The translations under genes and the position numbers were made by a program. A stretch of 40,545 bases of DNA, from contig DSAB01000117.1 in the NCBI GenBank assembly GCA_011388275.1, forward strand, positions 1-40,545, given 5' to 3'. The notes below the pieces were generated by a model. It was given only the letters and a program-made list of their open reading frames with translations, was not told the DNA's origin and ran no database searches. Shown in pieces: positions 30,349 to 38,383 of the stretch; position 1 is the first letter of the stretch, and each line of letters begins with the position of its first letter. Origin of the DNA: a bacterium (GTDB taxonomy: Bacteria > Zhuqueibacterota > QNDG01 > DSAB01).

Positions 30349-31365
30349 TCAAAACCGGACCGGATATCCCAATACGAATGAGAGCGCCTTGTCCAGTGTT
30401 TCCTGAAAATCCAGCGGAAGCCACGGCCCCGCATCAGGGGCGATCAGCAGTCTATGGAAAAGCCCCTGTGAATCGAACTCCTGAGCCATTTTTCTGTGTT
30501 CATCGAAATGCGGATCCGTTTGCGTGGTCAGGGTCACTCCTCGAACACCCAGTTCGGCGAGCGTCTTGATGGCTGCAGAATGTAAAATGTCCGGACGAAT
30601 CGGATTCAAAGTCACAAAACCCTGGATCGGAAATGTCTGCTCAGCCAGCATGGCCAGGGCGCCGTATCCGCCTGAGGAAAATCCGCCGATAAAAACACGG
30701 CCGGGACTGACATTGTAAATCTGCATGACCTTATTGTAGGCGGTCAGAATATCTTCCCGGGTCTTATCGAGGTTTTTCCAGGTATAGCCCCTCATCGACA
30801 CCACCTGTGAAGACTGCACGTAGGCGATAATAAACGAATTGTTCAGAGTGATCGAGCGCCACACATCACGAAAAGCGGCCGCGGTTTCACCGCCTCCGTG
30901 CAGGGCAATAAACAGCGGATACGATTGCCGGGTGCTGTGGTTCGCGGGAAGTTCGACAATCACATCGGAACGGGCTGCCTGCTGGGCTCTTCTGAAAAAT
31001 TTATCGTTCCTCTTCATGAAAACCGGGTACCGGTCGTGTTTGCGCAAAGGGCGGAAAAACTCCGAGGAAAATGCATTCAGACCGAACCACACTCCCCGGT
31101 CATGGGCGTATTTTAACGCGTCAAAGGCCCGTTCATAATCTTCCAGATGGATACACATGGCCGTCAGATTGTAGGTGTTCTCCTCGACATGATCTGGATA
31201 CTGATCGATTACCCGCTCGAGAACATCCGCGGCTTCCTGGTAATTCTTTCCTTCATACAGCTGCGCGATGTAGGTTTTCAAGGCGTCATACGTGGGCAGA
31301 CGGGCCTCCTGCCCGGAAAGGCAAAGCGGTAAAATGATCAGCGTGAGCCATATTGACTTTCTCAT
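30349..31365 (-). CDS. Exported TPR-alpha/beta hydrolase
   Basis: This 338-residue protein has a signal peptide (about 1-18, MRKSIWLTLIILPLCLSG). A TPR-like helical part (to about 130; NYQEAADVLERVIDQYPDH) precedes an alpha/beta-hydrolase domain with PLFIALHGGG (oxyanion region) and GGFSSGGYGAL (nucleophilic Ser). A DTDP-like acid loop is less clear, and a His late in the sequence (DEHRKM region) may complete the triad. It resembles the polyhydroxybutyrate depolymerase/esterase group. The substrate is unknown. The ATG at 31365 is preceded by AGGGGAG; a GTG 27 nt upstream is less likely. Confidence 0.72.
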   Translation of the reverse strand: MRKSIWLTLIILPLCLSGQEARLPTYDALKTYIAQLYEGKNYQEAADVLERVIDQYPDHVEENTYNLTAMCIHLEDYERAFDALKYAHDRGVWFGLNAFSSEFFRPLRKHDRYPVFMKRNDKFFRRAQQAARSDVIVELPANHSTRQSYPLFIALHGGGETAAAFRDVWRSITLNNSFIIAYVQSSQVVSMRGYTWKNLDKTREDILTAYNKVMQIYNVSPGRVFIGGFSSGGYGALAMLAEQTFPIQGFVTLNPIRPDILHSAAIKTLAELGVRGVTLTTQTDPHFDEHRKMAQEFDSQGLFHRLLIAPDAGPWLPLDFQETLDKALSFVLGYPVRF

Positions 31366-31500
31366 AAGGTTTTCTCCCCTATCAAATTTCACTTTTTCAA
31401 TGATTTGCTGTTTTGCATTCCGGTCCGGCAGAAAGCCGGTTTAAATACTTTTCATGTGAGCACTGATCAATCAGCACGGACGGCTGAAACGTTCCGCGGT

Positions 31501-32688
31501 CTAGAACAGCTTGCTGGTCAGTTTGTCCCTGATCCTCTGAAGATGCTCCATATACAGATCTTCGTATCCGTCGGGACGAAGCCGGCTCTTTTTCACCGCG
31601 GTTTCATAATGCTTTTTGGCGATCAGATATTTTCCTTCCAGTTCATACAGCTCACCCAGGCTGTCATGGCTCTTGGGTGAATCGGGATACAGACGAACAT
31701 ATTCCTCGAAAATGATTCTGGCCGTCTCACGATCATAGGCCATGGTTTCATAACCCAGCCTTCGGATCATCTGTTCGGGTATCTTCACGGTATAGCCGAA
31801 ACGCTCGGTCAGAGCATCATAATAGGCCCGAAGAGAATCCAGGCCTTCCGCGTAGATTCGCGCCGGAACCTGCCAGCCGTCAAAGATGAATTCCAGTCCA
31901 TGATACACGCTGAGATGGGGAGTCGTGCCATGATGGTATTTCGGCATGGAAACAAACCGCCAGACCACTCCGTCCCCGGATCCGTCCTGCAGCAGCTCCG
32001 TAAACCGGTCAATACCGGGCCGGTATGAAGGCTCATTGCCGAGGGTAATGTACAAATACTTGTTGCGGCGATTCTTTTCGCTCAGGTGCGATTCAATATC
32101 CGGAAGCAGCATATTTTTCGGCAGGCCCAGTGCCGGACTGACCGCGATATAACCGCCGAAAAGATACGGCCGCGTCAGAAACGCGTAGACGGTCAGAGTG
32201 CCGCCGAGAGAGTGACCGGCCAAGATCCGATAGGGTTCGGTGCGGTAACGGCTTTCCACGGCCGGGAAGCACTCCTTTTCAAGAAAATCCAGAAACCGGT
32301 CGGCTCCGCCGCTGAGGCGTGAATTGGGAATCCAAACGGGTGTAAAATCCCGGTCTCGATTGACATTGATCAATCCGACCACAATCATTTGCGGCATGGT
32401 CCAGCTCGATGAAAGAAACTGAACGATCCCGGTCACATGAAAGAAATGATTCTCCGCATCCAGCAGGTAGAGGACCGGATATTTTTTTTCTTCCATCATC
32501 TCATAGTTATCCGGCAGATAGACCAGCAGAGTACGGTTCTCGTTGAGCTCCGTGGAATGAAGAGTGATGATTTTACCGGCAACCAGCAGCCTGGTGTCCT
32601 CATCGGCCGGCAGCGGGGTTTGCATTATCATGATCAGAATGCATCCCGCGAGGCATTTTCTTATATACAATCCGTTCACAACGTTCAT
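31501..32688 (-). CDS. Exported esterase (Fes/EstD-like) with C-terminal TPR
   Basis: The 395 residues begin with a signal peptide (about 1-28). The esterase D-type fold follows: LLVYLPDNYE, KKYPVLYLLDAENHF, IVVGLINVNRDRDFTP, and the nucleophile elbow LAGHSLGG, with YHHGTTPHLSVYHGL supplying the candidate catalytic His. The last ~80 residues contain a TPR (SHDSLGELYELEGKYLIAKKHYETA). Family members cleave siderophore or carbohydrate esters. It is followed at 108 nt by the second TPR hydrolase on the same strand. Confidence 0.78.
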   Translation of the reverse strand: MNVVNGLYIRKCLAGCILIMIMQTPLPADEDTRLLVAGKIITLHSTELNENRTLLVYLPDNYEMMEEKKYPVLYLLDAENHFFHVTGIVQFLSSSWTMPQMIVVGLINVNRDRDFTPVWIPNSRLSGGADRFLDFLEKECFPAVESRYRTEPYRILAGHSLGGTLTVYAFLTRPYLFGGYIAVSPALGLPKNMLLPDIESHLSEKNRRNKYLYITLGNEPSYRPGIDRFTELLQDGSGDGVVWRFVSMPKYHHGTTPHLSVYHGLEFIFDGWQVPARIYAEGLDSLRAYYDALTERFGYTVKIPEQMIRRLGYETMAYDRETARIIFEEYVRLYPDSPKSHDSLGELYELEGKYLIAKKHYETAVKKSRLRPDGYEDLYMEHLQRIRDKLTSKLF

Positions 32689-33014: not shown

Positions 33015-35000
33015 ATGTTCCTGAAGCAGAAAATGATTTCGTTTCTCTGGCTGAGCCTCGCCTTTTGCGGACACGCAGCCGGAACCGAGATCATACGCTC
33101 TCCTTCGGGGTCCATACAGGTTCACTGCAATCTCAAAATCGAAACAGGGAGAGAAGGCAGCCGCTCTCGATTCACATTCAATATCTTCTACAAGGGCAAC
33201 CTCGTCCTTCAGGATTCTCCGACCGGCCTCTCATTCCGGGATCTTCCCTCACTCGAAGGAGATTTCCGTATCTACCACCTTGAAAGCCGCAGCGGTCAGG
33301 ATATCTTTCGCCTGCCCTTTGGCAACACGGATACGGTCCGCTGCGCGTGGAATGAAACCGTATTTTACCTGCAGGAGAGGTACCCCCCGTTTCGCGTGAT
33401 GGAGATGCATTTCAGAGTTTCGGAAGAAGGGGTCGCCTTCAGGTATCGGGTTCCGGATCAGGCAGGACTCAGCGAAGTCGAACTCACCGGTGAAGAAACC
33501 GCCTTCCAGCTGGCGGAAGGCCTGCTTTACGCTCTGCCGCTGGAATCGTTTACCACAACGTACGAAGCCAATTACTGGACAGGCCGCCCTCGGGAAATGC
33601 AGCCCTCCACCTTGCTCGGGCTTCCACTGCTCATGCGCACACCCCATGCCTGGCTTCTGTTTACGGAAGCCGGACTTAAAAATTACGGAGGAATGTATCT
33701 CAGGAAAGATCCAAAGAATATGTCGCGTCTTTTATCGGAAATCGCGCCTCGCAGACAGGATGCCGGAATTTCGGCACGGCTGAAAACGCCCTTTGTCACC
33801 CCCTGGAGGGTGATCCTGGTCCAAGAACGCCCCGTGCCCGCGGCTTCTCCGTTCATTCTCAGCCTCAATGACAAACCCGCTTATCCGGACACGGACTGGA
33901 TCAAACCCGGTAAATGCGTCTGGCCCGAATGGTCGGGTCATTGGGCGGAGGGGGAACCCTTTTCAGGGAAAATGAATACAGATACGTATCTATACTATTT
34001 GCAGTTCGCAGCCGATCATGGACTGGAATATCTGCTGATCGACGCGGGCTGGTACGGAGATCCTGAAAGCGGCCTCGAAGACATCACGACACCCAACTCC
34101 GGACTCGATCTTTCCCGCATTCTTCAGCAGGGTAAAGAGAGCGGAGTCGGTATTTTTCTCTGGCTGAACCTTGAATGTGTCGAGAATCAGATGGAAAAAG
34201 CGTTTCCGATCTACCGTTCATGGGGGGTGGCCGGAGTCAGAATCGGCCGCATAAACCGGGACGATCAGGAGACGGTCCGCTTTCTCCACCGTGTGCTGGA
34301 AGCGGCGGGAAAGCATCGGCTGATGGTCGTTTTTGACGGAGCATACAAACCCACCGGAATACGGCGAACCTATCCGCACCTGCTCACGCGAACGGCCGTT
34401 TTGGGCCAGCCGTGGAACAGAGGTTCAGTCCGATGCGACCCCGAGCACGCGCTGATGGTTCCTTTCATACGAATGGCCGCCGGTCCCGTGGATTTCGGAC
34501 CGGGCTGTTTCCGCACCGTGCAGGAAAACTATTTCGACCCTCATGCCGTTCCGCCCCTGGCCATGGGAACCCGAATGCATCAGCTGGCCATGTATGTGAT
34601 TTTTGAATCCCCTCTGCAGATGTGTGTCGACCATCCTGCCGCTTATTCAGGACAGCCCGGAATCGAACTTCTTCAAGCCCTGCCCACGGTTTGGGATGAA
34701 ACCCGGTTTATTGACGGAGAACCCGGAGATTTCATCATCACGGCCCGCCGCAAAGGCTCGGAATGGTTTGTGGCGGCCATGACAGACTGGACGCCCCGGA
34801 CTCTTTCTGTTCCGCTCTCCTTTTTGCAGGAGGGTGCGTACCGGTCGGAGATGCATACCGATTCACCCAATGCCCGCTTCGAGCCTCGCCGAATCCGCCG
34901 GTATTCGCTTCGGGTGACACGAAACGACACCCTCGACCTGCTGCTCGGACCGGGAGGCGGCGCGGTGGTTCACTTGATACTCGAATCCGCGGACTTTTGA
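33015..35000 (+). CDS. GH97-family glycoside hydrolase-like protein with altered active site
   Basis: The 661 residues follow the full GH97 layout: signal peptide (about 1-22), N-terminal beta-sandwich (SPSGSIQVHCNLKI), TIM barrel (LLIDAGWYGD, FLWLNLE, RDDQETVRFLHRVLEAAGKH, GAYKPTGIRRTYPHLLTR, PEHALMVPFIRMAAGPVDF) and C-terminal beta domain (PTVWDET, TARRKG, LGPGGG). Members are alpha-glucosidases/galactosidases. Where retaining enzymes have the nucleophile in KVDFMDRDDQ, this protein has RIGRINRDDQ (G411). The usual acid Glu after GVRG is replaced (LGQPWNRGS, P466). Inactive or unusual catalysis is possible. GGAGG precedes the ATG. Confidence 0.85.
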   Translation: MFLKQKMISFLWLSLAFCGHAAGTEIIRSPSGSIQVHCNLKIETGREGSRSRFTFNIFYKGNLVLQDSPTGLSFRDLPSLEGDFRIYHLESRSGQDIFRLPFGNTDTVRCAWNETVFYLQERYPPFRVMEMHFRVSEEGVAFRYRVPDQAGLSEVELTGEETAFQLAEGLLYALPLESFTTTYEANYWTGRPREMQPSTLLGLPLLMRTPHAWLLFTEAGLKNYGGMYLRKDPKNMSRLLSEIAPRRQDAGISARLKTPFVTPWRVILVQERPVPAASPFILSLNDKPAYPDTDWIKPGKCVWPEWSGHWAEGEPFSGKMNTDTYLYYLQFAADHGLEYLLIDAGWYGDPESGLEDITTPNSGLDLSRILQQGKESGVGIFLWLNLECVENQMEKAFPIYRSWGVAGVRIGRINRDDQETVRFLHRVLEAAGKHRLMVVFDGAYKPTGIRRTYPHLLTRTAVLGQPWNRGSVRCDPEHALMVPFIRMAAGPVDFGPGCFRTVQENYFDPHAVPPLAMGTRMHQLAMYVIFESPLQMCVDHPAAYSGQPGIELLQALPTVWDETRFIDGEPGDFIITARRKGSEWFVAAMTDWTPRTLSVPLSFLQEGAYRSEMHTDSPNARFEPRRIRRYSLRVTRNDTLDLLLGPGGGAVVHLILESADF

Positions 35001-35034: not shown

Positions 35035-36723
35035 ATGAAACAACGTATCTGGATATTCTTGCTGACTGTCCCCTTGCTCAGTCAGGCCGAAAATTATCTG
35101 ATTCAGGGTGAAAAATCGTCCCGAATTCAGTACCGGCTCACCCAGGAGGTCCAGACAGGGGCCGGCACACAGAGTCTGACCCTGAGTTTTGTGATCCCGC
35201 AATCTTTTGACTCGCCTACCGTGAAGCAGCGTATCGAGAATCTGAGGCTGAATCTGGCTCCGGAACCGCAGGAACGCAGAGAGGAACAGGATTCACGTGG
35301 CAACCGGATCGTTCGGGCTGTTTGGAAAAAGCCTCCGGCATCCATTGACGCGGCCATGGAATTCACAGCCGTCAACCGGACACAGCTGGGCCGGCTGAAA
35401 TCCGGCGCGCCTTTCCCGCTGAACACGGTCCCCGCAGAGGTGTCCGATTATCTCGGCGAATCCAGACAGGTTCAGGTGAATGATCCGCGTATTCGGGAGA
35501 AAGCCCGATCTCTGACACAGTCTGTGAAAACCGAATTCGACGCGGTCCAGAGAATACTGACCTGGATCGTGGATCACATGCGCTACGTCACGCCTCCCAG
35601 GCAATACGACGCGCTGTACAGCTTCGAAAGCGGCAGGGGAAACTGTCAGAACTATTCGCACCTGTCCGCGGCCCTCATGCGCTCTGCAGGCATACCGGTA
35701 CGCATCGTCAACGGGGTCACCCTCAAAGAACCCTATACGGTGAACACTCCGGAAGGGGCGTTTACTTTCAAAATGGGCCAGGGAAGACATTCATGGATTG
35801 AGGTCTGGTTTCCGGATCTGGGCTGGATTCCGTTCGATCCCCAGCAGACCGAACTGTTCGTTTCCAACCGGTTCGTCCGCATCGAGGTCGGCGTGGACAA
35901 TGAAGAAACCGTCAATGACGGCATGGTGCAGTGGCGGCGGGTCAAGGGAACTTCGGAAAAGCCCCGTTTCCGCGAATCGATCGACGCGGCCTTTCCCGAA
36001 GACCGGGTTCAGCTGACACTGACCAAACAGAATTACGGTCCGCAGGCCATGCTGATATGCCCGGCCATTGAAACCACGTTCACTCCGGTCGCGGTACCGC
36101 CTCCCCCGCCTCCGGAAAAAGTGGATGAAAGCCGCCTGAAAACCCTGCGGTACACAAAACCCTTTCTGTTCGGAAACCTGGACTTTCCTCGCGGCGTTGA
36201 TTTTCTGTTCACACACGGGCCGGCCGAGAAGAAGAAAGACGATCTCTTTTCAATGACCAAAACATTTATGGTGGAGACCGCCGAATACGTCACAACCCAG
36301 ATGACTCAGTACGCACAGATCTTCGTGCTTCAGGTGCCCGTCGAACTGAAGAGCGTGGGTCTGGCCCTGCACAAGTTCGGAGGCAGCGGTCAGCTCTGGG
36401 TTGAACTCATGGACGATGCCGGGGGGCGGCCCGGAAAAATCATCGTTTCCAGCGATTTTCTGTCTCTGGACCGGCTTTCGGCCAAACCCGGTTACGACTG
36501 GGTGGATTTCGATTTTTCCGGACAATCTCTGAAACTTTCGCCCGGCCGGTACTGGATCGCGCTGGGTTTTACGGGCCGGCCCATTGTCAACTGGTTTTAC
36601 ACCTACGGAAAGCCCGTGGGGCCCATTGACGGCACGCGGTACAAATCGGTTTACGAAGAAAAGTGGAGCGGAGCCATGACCTATGAGTTCAATTACCGGG
36701 TCACCGGCCTGGCCGCCCGCTGA
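35035..36723 (+). CDS. Exported transglutaminase-like (TGc) protein
   Basis: The 562 residues carry a signal peptide (about 1-19). A beta-rich N-terminal region leads to a transglutaminase/protease-fold core with the triad C204 (GRGNCQNYSHLSAALMRSAGIPVR), H252 (GRHSWIEVWF) and D268 (GWIPFDP). A proline run (PPPPPPEK) follows. The C-terminal ~170 residues look like a beta-sandwich (GSGQLWVELMDDAGGRPG), perhaps a surface-binding or sorting domain. Proteins of this type act as peptidases or amidases in the envelope. Spacing to the GH97-like gene is 34 nt with AGGGAGG upstream. Confidence 0.82.
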   Translation: MKQRIWIFLLTVPLLSQAENYLIQGEKSSRIQYRLTQEVQTGAGTQSLTLSFVIPQSFDSPTVKQRIENLRLNLAPEPQERREEQDSRGNRIVRAVWKKPPASIDAAMEFTAVNRTQLGRLKSGAPFPLNTVPAEVSDYLGESRQVQVNDPRIREKARSLTQSVKTEFDAVQRILTWIVDHMRYVTPPRQYDALYSFESGRGNCQNYSHLSAALMRSAGIPVRIVNGVTLKEPYTVNTPEGAFTFKMGQGRHSWIEVWFPDLGWIPFDPQQTELFVSNRFVRIEVGVDNEETVNDGMVQWRRVKGTSEKPRFRESIDAAFPEDRVQLTLTKQNYGPQAMLICPAIETTFTPVAVPPPPPPEKVDESRLKTLRYTKPFLFGNLDFPRGVDFLFTHGPAEKKKDDLFSMTKTFMVETAEYVTTQMTQYAQIFVLQVPVELKSVGLALHKFGGSGQLWVELMDDAGGRPGKIIVSSDFLSLDRLSAKPGYDWVDFDFSGQSLKLSPGRYWIALGFTGRPIVNWFYTYGKPVGPIDGTRYKSVYEEKWSGAMTYEFNYRVTGLAAR

Positions 36724-36763: not shown

Positions 36764-37792
36764 ATGAAAGCGAAGCTTGTTTTTGGATGGATAATGCTTT
36801 TTCAGCTGGCGTGGACACAGGCCATGGGGGCCCGTTCCATCCAGCTGATCACACCCGAACTTCAGCAGCTGGGGCGCCTGAAGGAAGGGACCGTGGTCAC
36901 GGATACGCTTCTTTTCGCCAACCGGACTCGGTCTTCCCTGCGCATCAGCCGGATCAAATCTTCATGCGGATGCACGGTTCCGACTCTGGACCGGGACATC
37001 CTCGCGCCCGGAGACACCGCCCGAATCATCTATGTGCTCAATACTCGAGGCTTCCACGGCCTGCTTCGAAAAACCCTGACCGTGGAGTTCCATGAAACAA
37101 AGATCGAACCGGTCACCTTCCTTCTGGAATTTCAGGTGTACAATGAACTGGATATCGAACCCCGGTATATCCATTTCAAGGACGTCCATACCGATCCCGA
37201 CACCGTGTTGACCGCCGCGATCATCGTGCGGAATTACGGCGATGTCCCCATTCGGCTGAAACGGGTGTTCGCCAAATCCGGCCGGGTGAAAGTCGGCCCG
37301 GTCAGGGCGCGCCTCGATCCGCTCGATGCAGTCACCCTGACGGTGCGTTTTACACCGACTGAACCAGCGATGATCATGGATTATATTATTATCGAGACCG
37401 ACCATGAGAAAAACAGAATTCTGGAAATTCCCGTTTTCGGCCAGGTGCGGCGCGGATTTCAAACGAATCATCAGCCGGAGCCTGATGCTCGCGGGTGCGG
37501 CCCTGTTTCTGGGACTGGCCGCCAACCATCTTCACCCGGCCGGCATGCCCATGCGCCTGATGACGCTTCCCCTTACCGGCGTTTCAGCCGTGGAGGCCTG
37601 GCGGCCCCTGCATGCGGATTCGGCTTTTGCGCTTCACCTGCAGCAGACCGCCGTGTTCTGGGACGTGCGGCCTCAGGCCGATTTCAACCTGGACCATATT
37701 CCGGGCGCCTGTTCCGTGCCCTTCCCGGCGTTTTTCAGAAATCCGGACCGGTACCTGCCGGCCGACCCCGAGACCACGCTGGTGCTCTATGA
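36764..37792 (+). CDS. DUF1573 protein, frame runs on into the next gene
   Basis: This exported protein has a signal peptide (about 1-22) and the DUF1573 hallmark KSSCGCTVPTLDRDILAPGDTARI (about 65-88), followed by a second immunoglobulin-like repeat (DIEPRYIHFKDV to ILEIPVFGQV, about residue 227). From about 37450 the frame continues for over 110 residues of Arg/Pro/Gly-rich sequence that is only the out-of-frame reading of the rhodanese-like gene. The genuine protein should end near 37450-37485. A TGA (37483) is present in the -1 frame. A one-base loss or a real -1 shift would close it. Confidence 0.7.
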   Translation: MKAKLVFGWIMLFQLAWTQAMGARSIQLITPELQQLGRLKEGTVVTDTLLFANRTRSSLRISRIKSSCGCTVPTLDRDILAPGDTARIIYVLNTRGFHGLLRKTLTVEFHETKIEPVTFLLEFQVYNELDIEPRYIHFKDVHTDPDTVLTAAIIVRNYGDVPIRLKRVFAKSGRVKVGPVRARLDPLDAVTLTVRFTPTEPAMIMDYIIIETDHEKNRILEIPVFGQVRRGFQTNHQPEPDARGCGPVSGTGRQPSSPGRHAHAPDDASPYRRFSRGGLAAPACGFGFCASPAADRRVLGRAASGRFQPGPYSGRLFRALPGVFQKSGPVPAGRPRDHAGAL

Positions 37793-37931
37793 TTTCGAAG
37801 ATTACAGCCCCAGGCCCAGACAAATGATTCAATGGCTTTTGTCCAAAGGATACAGCCGGGTTTATCAGCTTCGGAACGGATACAGTTTCTGGCTGGACAT
37901 GGGATACCCGAGGAAGGAGGGGAACCGATGA
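37404..37931 (+). CDS. Membrane-anchored rhodanese-like protein lacking the active-site Cys
   Basis: Up to 175 residues. A basic segment (FKRIISRS) is followed by a transmembrane helix (LMLAGAALFLGLAANHL), then a rhodanese fold: VFWDVRPQADFNLDHIPGACSVPF, LVLYDFEDYSPRPRQMIQWLLSKGY and VYQLRNGYSFWLDMGYP. The loop that normally carries the catalytic Cys (VVYCxxGxR) reads LYDFEDYSPRP, so sulphur transfer is unlikely. The start is uncertain. ATG 37404 keeps the positive charges; ATG 37485 has GGAG upstream and a TGATG overlap. It precedes the DoxX-like gene with an ATGA overlap. Confidence 0.7.
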   Translation: MRKTEFWKFPFSARCGADFKRIISRSLMLAGAALFLGLAANHLHPAGMPMRLMTLPLTGVSAVEAWRPLHADSAFALHLQQTAVFWDVRPQADFNLDHIPGACSVPFPAFFRNPDRYLPADPETTLVLYDFEDYSPRPRQMIQWLLSKGYSRVYQLRNGYSFWLDMGYPRKEGNR

Positions 37932-38383
37932 AAGCCGGGACATGGACGGTTTGGTTGCTGCGCCTGGGATTCGGAGTACTGCTTCTGGCCGCGGCGCTTC
38001 CCAAGATCGCTCAGCCCCTGCTGTTCGCCGAAGCCGTAGCGAATTACCGGGTTCTGGGAGAGCCTCTCTCCCGCTGGGCCGCGGTGTGGGTGCCCTGGCT
38101 GGAACTTCTGGCGGGACTCTCTCTGATCAGCGGTCTCTGGCTGGAAGCCGGCGTGACAGTCAACGCGGGACTCATGACGGCCTTTCTCGTTCTGGTCGTT
38201 CAGGCCCAGCTCCGGGGTCTCGACATCGGCTGCGGCTGCTTCGATGTGCAGGGTGAGGATCCCATTACCTGGCTGAAAATCATGGAGAATCTGGCTTTCG
38301 CGGCCGGATCGCTGCTCCTGGCGCGGCTGTGCTTCCGGCCAAGCGGATCCGGCTTTCCAAACGTTAATACCGATCATCAATGA
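37928..38383 (+). CDS. DoxX/MauE-like membrane protein
   Basis: The 151 residues form four transmembrane helices, starting MKAGTWTVWLLRLGFGVLLL. LGEPLSRWAAVWVPWLELLAGLSLI and the loop LDIGCGCFDVQ (CxC) identify the MauE/DoxX-like quinone-linked redox group. Such proteins resemble half of a VKOR/DsbB unit and pair with rhodanese-like partners in many FCB genomes. A GGAGG lies just upstream. The ATGA overlap makes it co-translated with the rhodanese-like gene. Confidence 0.82.
   Translation: MKAGTWTVWLLRLGFGVLLLAAALPKIAQPLLFAEAVANYRVLGEPLSRWAAVWVPWLELLAGLSLISGLWLEAGVTVNAGLMTAFLVLVVQAQLRGLDIGCGCFDVQGEDPITWLKIMENLAFAAGSLLLARLCFRPSGSGFPNVNTDHQ

Follow-up and report, generated by a model that had tools for sequence, protein, structure and literature searches.

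A clade of GH97-fold proteins with piecemeal loss of catalytic residues, probably secreted pseudoenzymes

The protein encoded by gene P0001 in the window (the whole 40,545-nucleotide stretch of DNA analysed here) belongs, together with four relatives from the same order, to a clade that probably consists of secreted GH97 pseudoenzymes, in which catalytic residues were lost piecemeal while the proteins were retained for a non-catalytic role. The clade would descend from a retaining (HG-type) ancestor, and its members would have kept the secretion signal, the reading frame and the fold-determining residues while the catalytic residues went. P0001 itself lacks the nucleophile (Gly411), the general acid (Pro466) and an inverting base (HHET and HE being absent), and of the Ca2+-ligand glutamates it retains only one, Glu184. 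It is very likely inactive by any known GH97 mechanism: with nucleophile, acid and another Ca2+ ligand all gone, hydrolysis in this manner is very unlikely. We infer that it has a non-catalytic job outside the cytoplasm, most likely binding a glycan or serving as a scaffold or as a partner in an oligomer. Among the explanations considered, a pseudoenzyme, as raised in the sequence-only reading of this DNA, is the best fit: the nucleophile and the acid are gone, and the inverting glutamate set is absent by sequence.

Domain architecture and family assignment

P0001 starts with an ATG preceded by GGAGG, and the encoded protein carries a probable signal peptide, judged by eye (Table 1). The assignment of its fold and C-terminal domain to GH97, made earlier from the sequence, holds: all three GH97 Pfam domains score above their cut-offs, namely, Glyco_hydro_97 (E = 3.4e-80; 269.8 bits vs 32.5), GH97_N (E = 1.7e-37; 129.6 bits vs 25.3) and GH97_C (E = 8.1e-28; 97 bits vs 25). 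The nearest PDB chains are 5e1q (E = 7.6e-85) and 3a24 (E = 7.4e-84); 3a24 and 5e1q represent the retaining alpha-galactosidase BT1871 (BtGH97b) and the D415G mutant of BT1871. A structure prediction based on an alignment of P0001 with five related loci had a mean pLDDT of 58.4 and a pTM of 0.43, with residues 441-517, in the active site, below a pLDDT of 50. A Foldseek search with this model ranked GH97 chains first (5e1q_B, E = 2.2e-38; TM 0.34, rmsd 28 A), which supports the family assignment but not a superposition.

Table 1. Features of P0001 and the adjacent downstream gene (window coordinates)
Feature	Position	Strand	Remarks
P0001, gene of a GH97-fold protein, probable pseudoenzyme	33015..35000	+	661 aa; N-terminal signal peptide by eye
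GH97_N beta-sandwich, residues 27-274	33093..33836	+	PF14508; carries clade motif LQERYPPFR (alignment)
GH97 (beta/alpha)8 barrel, residues 292-557	33888..34685	+	PF10566; catalytic positions replaced
GH97_C domain, residues 559-654	34689..34976	+	PF14509; invariant columns kept 11/11
Glu184, equivalent of SusB Glu194 (Ca2+ ligand)	33564..33566	+	Sole Ca2+-site Glu kept; Gln here is the signature of HD-type outliers
Glu305, in place of invariant Trp on strand beta1	33927..33929	+	Alignment
Arg409, in place of Lys (SusB Lys467, C3-OH binding)	34239..34241	+	
Gly411, in place of retaining nucleophile Asp (BtGH97b Asp415)	34245..34247	+	
Asp441, in place of active-site His (SusB His507)	34335..34337	+	
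Thr460, in place of Ca2+-ligand Glu (SusB Glu526)	34392..34394	+	
Pro466, in place of general acid/base Glu (SusB Glu532)	34410..34412	+	
Transglutaminase-like protein	35035..36723	+	34 nt downstream of P0001; own Shine-Dalgarno sequence

Active-site replacements

The active-site positions of P0001 were mapped using conserved flanks and the description of SusB in PMC2670981; the correspondence with SusB numbering follows motif order rather than an alignment to SusB, and the Glu194 column was recognized by its content, Glu in the HE-type and HG-type rows but Gln in the HD-type ones. According to this description, SusB employs Glu439 of the HHET motif as the base and Glu532 as the acid, coordinates Ca2+ through Glu194, Glu508, Glu526 and Glu532 (Gloster 2008), contacts the C3-, C4- and C2-hydroxyls of the sugar through Lys467, residue 391 and His507, respectively, and has Gly469 at the position of the retaining nucleophile (PMC2670981).

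The motifs RIGRINRDDQ, VFDGAYKPTG and LGQPWNRGS are each found in P0001 as quoted in the sequence-only reading, and alignment with 106 GH97 rows bears out its finding that the nucleophile has become Gly and the acid Pro. P0001 has neither the beta4 Asp nucleophile (Gly411) nor the beta6 acid/base Glu (Pro466) of retaining enzymes, whose motifs are (K/M)(I/V)DF and HG. The GH97 Ca2+ site is not intact either: Glu184 is kept, Gly442 occupies the position of Glu508, and Thr460 and Pro466 occupy those of residues 526 and 532. The motifs HHET/HNET and HE of the inverting enzymes (97a) are absent from P0001, with FLWLNLE and FDG found instead in the sequence alignment, and so is the complete inverting glutamate set that the earlier reading had named as the case against a pseudoenzyme (no HHET; DG for HE; Thr/Pro for Glu/Glu). 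Weak sugar binding by P0001 is plausible because Asp343, the pocket residue at the position of the C4-OH binder of SusB (residue 391), is kept.

No canonical GH97 motif is found in the other reading frames of 34225-34440, which makes it unlikely that a local frameshift produced the replacements. The same Asp-to-Gly change as in P0001 characterizes the D415G mutant of BtGH97b, which is described as catalytically inactive (PMC12018205) and as regaining activity when azide or formate is supplied together with alpha-galactosyl fluoride (PMC12018205, PMC6151457).

Conservation of the catalytic residues among GH97 proteins

The alignment contained P0001 and 106 GH97 rows, 101 from the phylum of P0001 and five from Bacteroidales/Bacteroides records; 75 rows are of the HG type. 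Outside the five-member clade, Asp/His/Glu/Glu (nucleophile, beta5 His, Ca2+ ligand and acid) are kept in all 71 HG-type rows, which argues that the losses in P0001 are not due to chance; the set is complete in none of the five clade members. Among the HE-type rows, HHET or HNET is present in 19 of 20 and YHET in the remaining one, and the Ca2+-ligand Glu and the acid Glu are each found in 20/20. The HD-type rows have the Ca2+-ligand Glu in 10/10, the acid Glu in 9/9 readable rows and Gln at the Glu194 position in 8/9 readable rows. The best matches of P0001 are HG-type proteins, and in trees from which HE and HD rows were absent, it likewise falls with HG-type relatives.

Fragments short of the active-site columns and the partial rows L176-L179 stood outside this 107-row tally, and for loci split by a stop, the best piece alone was counted. 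Wherever the partial rows could be read, they match the consensus; a Pro that a pairwise alignment of L177 placed at the acid position was rejected as an alignment slip, the sequence reading GYE. The first piece of L125 has Asn/Pro at the late positions, where the alignment overruns the end of that frame, and its second piece has Glu/Glu. Scans of viral contigs found no further relatives of P0001, the scan of genome contigs yielded only five distant GH97s from Bacteroidales/Bacteroides, and the nearest hit in the plasmid search was at 36%.

A clade with mosaic losses

In the maximum-likelihood tree, a branch supported at 100/100 separates P0001, L004, L005, L094 and L124 from the rest, and P0001, L004 and L005 also appear together in further trees (support 100/100 in one of them). 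The nearest relatives, L004 (genome G008, from the same family as P0001) and L005 (G015, same order), each match P0001 at 46-47%; L094 (G018) and L124 (G017), from the same order, are far more divergent. The N-domain motif (L/M)QE(K/R)xxPFR occurs in all five, and across 12 genomes of the order, the matches of L094 rank L124, L004, P0001 and L005 ahead of other GH97s.

Given as Lys / nucleophile / His / Ca2+ ligand / acid, the residues are K/D/H/D/E in L005, Q/N/H/E/E in L004, R/G/D/T/P in P0001, F/D/K/A/I in L094 and F/S/Q/T in L124, where the acid column is uncertain (Glu in one alignment, Ala in another; not reliably alignable). L004 has lost the nucleophile and kept the acid, and L094 has lost everything but an Asp that still aligns with the nucleophile; this mosaic points to repeated loss once constraint eased, rather than to a single inherited inactive state. 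L005, with Glu to Asp at the Ca2+ ligand as the sole change in the set, may well be active. L094 and L124, the two most degenerate members, also lack the beta1 loop, the motifs around it and the equivalent of Asp343, and in them the outer beta domains alone stay comparatively conserved, on which grounds the job of these two proteins has probably moved to the outer domains. P0001 and L005 group together with 95-99% bootstrap, but a grouping of P0001 with L004 is not rejected (p-AU 0.09), the branching within the clade not being firm, and long branches leave the order of the losses uncertain. Recurrent loss in a lineage of intact ORFs, taken here as one mark of pseudoenzymes, is seen in the five-member clade.

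Selective constraint and domain conservation

L005, L094 and L124 are each divergent from, and adjoin, the same OPT transporter gene (protein identity 76% for G015/G018 and 88-91% for G017/G018), and L094 and L124 are hence positional orthologues of L005; the OPT orthologue at G000:C57 is without an adjoining GH97. The GH97 proteins of G017 and G018 share 36% identity, vs 88% for OPT and 77, 59 and 50% for three more genes of the neighbourhood, so the L094/L124 lineage evolves fast. By eye, the gene at 77% resembles one for a histidyl-tRNA synthetase.

The frames of L094 and L124 are open, with no internal stops. Identities at the three codon positions are 0.58/0.64/0.36 for P0001/L004 and 0.49/0.62/0.36 for L094/L124, the second position being the best conserved in both pairs; as judged from this comparison, the pattern shows protein-level coding constraint. 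For dN/dS of L094/L124, synonymous sites are saturated. The degenerate copy is the only GH97 match in G017 and G018 (genome completeness 80% and 95%), and the genome of P0001 has a second, canonical GH97 (G000:C129, with KVDFMQRDDQ and REGVRGLE).

Of 95 columns that are invariant across 36 retaining relatives, P0001 keeps 76 (14/15 in the N domain, 51/69 in the barrel and 11/11 in the C domain). Its losses affect 5 of the 8 literature-mapped active-site columns vs 14 of the 87 others (one-sided Fisher p 0.007), an enrichment that is not significant for L004, L005, L094 and L124. As a control, 17 near relatives were each scored on the columns invariant among the others, and every one retained 95-100% of these. 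The barrel of P0001 is 55% identical to that of L006, and the barrel of L004 is 57% identical; P0001 has thus evolved no faster than L004 in this domain, and its losses are therefore concentrated in the active site.

Identities of the barrel, N and C domains are 74/37/42% for the canonical copies L001/L055 (from the genome of P0001 and its nearest relative), 56/39/44% for P0001/L004 and 30/39/38% for L094/L124. We tentatively suggest a stepwise change within this one order, possible although not the likelier case, from a secreted GH97 alpha-galactosidase-like enzyme to a fast-evolving non-catalytic protein, in which the barrel would have passed from the most to the least conserved domain and function would have shifted to the beta domains, with stages ranging from near-intact through partly dead to fully degenerate coexisting among living genomes.

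Genomic neighborhood

P0001 was previously proposed to head an operon with the gene of a transglutaminase-like protein. The two genes lie on the same strand with a 34-nt gap and are probably co-transcribed, but the pair is not a conserved unit. Orthologues of the transglutaminase-like protein are common in the phylum; within the order, 10 of the remaining 11 genomes encode one, at 55-66% identity. None of them adjoins a GH97 gene, all lying either on different contigs or over 10 kb from GH97 matches (coordinates by eye). Because these orthologues are not next to GH97 genes, no functional link to P0001 is proposed. Comparison of 14 window genes with 22 stretches around GH97 relatives detected no synteny, the GH97 gene alone being matched.

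Elsewhere in the window, two genes of esterase-type alpha/beta hydrolases (30349-32688, minus strand) are divergent to P0001. A DUF1573 ORF (36767-37792, plus strand) overlaps a rhodanese ORF (37404-37931, plus strand) by almost 400 nt in another frame, and its tail looks like read-through, possibly from a frameshift or from an ORF called too long; downstream of the DUF1573 gene is a pair encoding a rhodanese and a MauE/DoxX-like membrane protein (37404-38383, plus strand).

Around the relatives, an aldose 1-epimerase gene lies directly behind the L005 GH97 gene (L039:8818-11949), which would be in keeping with an active galactosidase. The canonical GH97 of the same genome (L058, G015:C5) is split by an in-frame TGA, so this copy may be broken. 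Directly behind L004 (L038:6711-8822, minus strand), a 703-aa protein with a HELGH motif is encoded, zinc-peptidase-like by eye and without a Pfam match.

Alternative explanations

The most serious competitor, albeit an unlikely one, is that P0001 is a dying gene under relaxed selection, redundant with the canonical G000:C129 and devoid of current function. The presence of that canonical copy in the same genome and the fast evolution of the clade (36% for L094/L124 vs 88, 77, 59 and 50% for neighbourhood genes) are in line with decay. However, despite a long terminal branch of about 0.9 changes per site, P0001 has 661 stop-free codons and keeps the outer-domain invariants along with 51/69 of those in the barrel, second codon positions are the best conserved, and in G017 and G018, the degenerate copy is the sole GH97 match. 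Still less probable is an active P0001 with a rebuilt site, in which Asp441 and/or Glu305 would take over as acid or nucleophile and the usual Ca2+ site would be dispensed with. These two residues are indeed new carboxylates at pocket positions, the nucleophile/base position of GH97 has already changed once (Gloster 2008, PMC2670981), and the barrel is still the best-conserved domain of P0001 (56% to L004 vs 39% for the N and 44% for the C domain). Yet several usual pocket ligands are gone at once, and neither residue occurs in L004 (Gly305, His441), L005 (Trp305, His441), L094 or L124, so no lineage conserves a new apparatus.

Two further explanations appear highly improbable. Membership in the known outlier group of GH97 (97e-like, with KXG(Y/F) and HD motifs) would account for the Gly at the nucleophile position and the missing inverting base, both as described in PMC2670981, but that group keeps both late glutamates, its His is followed by Asp, and the Glu194 position is mostly Gln, whereas in P0001 Asp441 is followed by Gly, the other three positions are Glu184, Thr460 and Pro466, and the best matches are of the HG type. 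Assembly or sequencing error in the contig is conceivable in that the species of P0001 is represented by one sequence; nevertheless, several separate positions are changed with no compensating frameshift, and the same sites carry different losses in four relatives, each from another genome of the order. A GH97 pseudoenzyme remains the preferred interpretation of P0001.

Comparison with known GH97 proteins and pseudoenzymes

The equivalents of Glu526 and Glu532 were described as absolutely conserved in the ~80 GH97 members then known (Gloster 2008, PMC2670981); the clade analysed here breaks this reported invariance of the acid and Ca2+-ligand glutamates. In the open-licence literature searched, we found no GH97 protein described as a pseudoenzyme and no report on the P0001 clade. 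Automatic annotation would label these proteins alpha-galactosidases, probably wrongly for at least three of the five. The graded losses amount to a natural experiment in the conversion of a carbohydrate-active enzyme to a non-enzyme, in which one can ask whether sugar binding outlives catalysis.

P0001 resembles BtGH97b/BT1871 (3a24, 5e1q) in its three-domain architecture, as its best PDB match and in belonging to the HG-type branch, but differs in that Asp415, the acid Glu and a Ca2+-ligand Glu of that enzyme are replaced with Gly, Pro and Thr. With the inverting alpha-glucosidase SusB/BtGH97a (2d73, 2jka), it shares Gly at the beta4 position, whereas the HHET base motif, the beta5 HE and both late glutamates of SusB are all missing. 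Like the six outlier GH97 sequences of Gloster 2008 (compare 97e, Naumoff 2005, PMC1249566), which are predicted to have neither nucleophile nor inverting base and for which the authors suggest inactivity or another apparatus (PMC2670981), P0001 is without both. Unlike those sequences, which are described as keeping both late glutamates, with Gln at the Glu194 position, P0001 has lost the late glutamates and kept Glu184; the HD motif and the Gln at the Glu194 position are not found in it (Asp441-Gly442 and Glu184, respectively). By prediction, P0001 is akin to the GH18 and GH13 pseudoenzymes named in PMC2670981, in which the fold was kept, catalysis was lost and a new non-enzymatic role was acquired.
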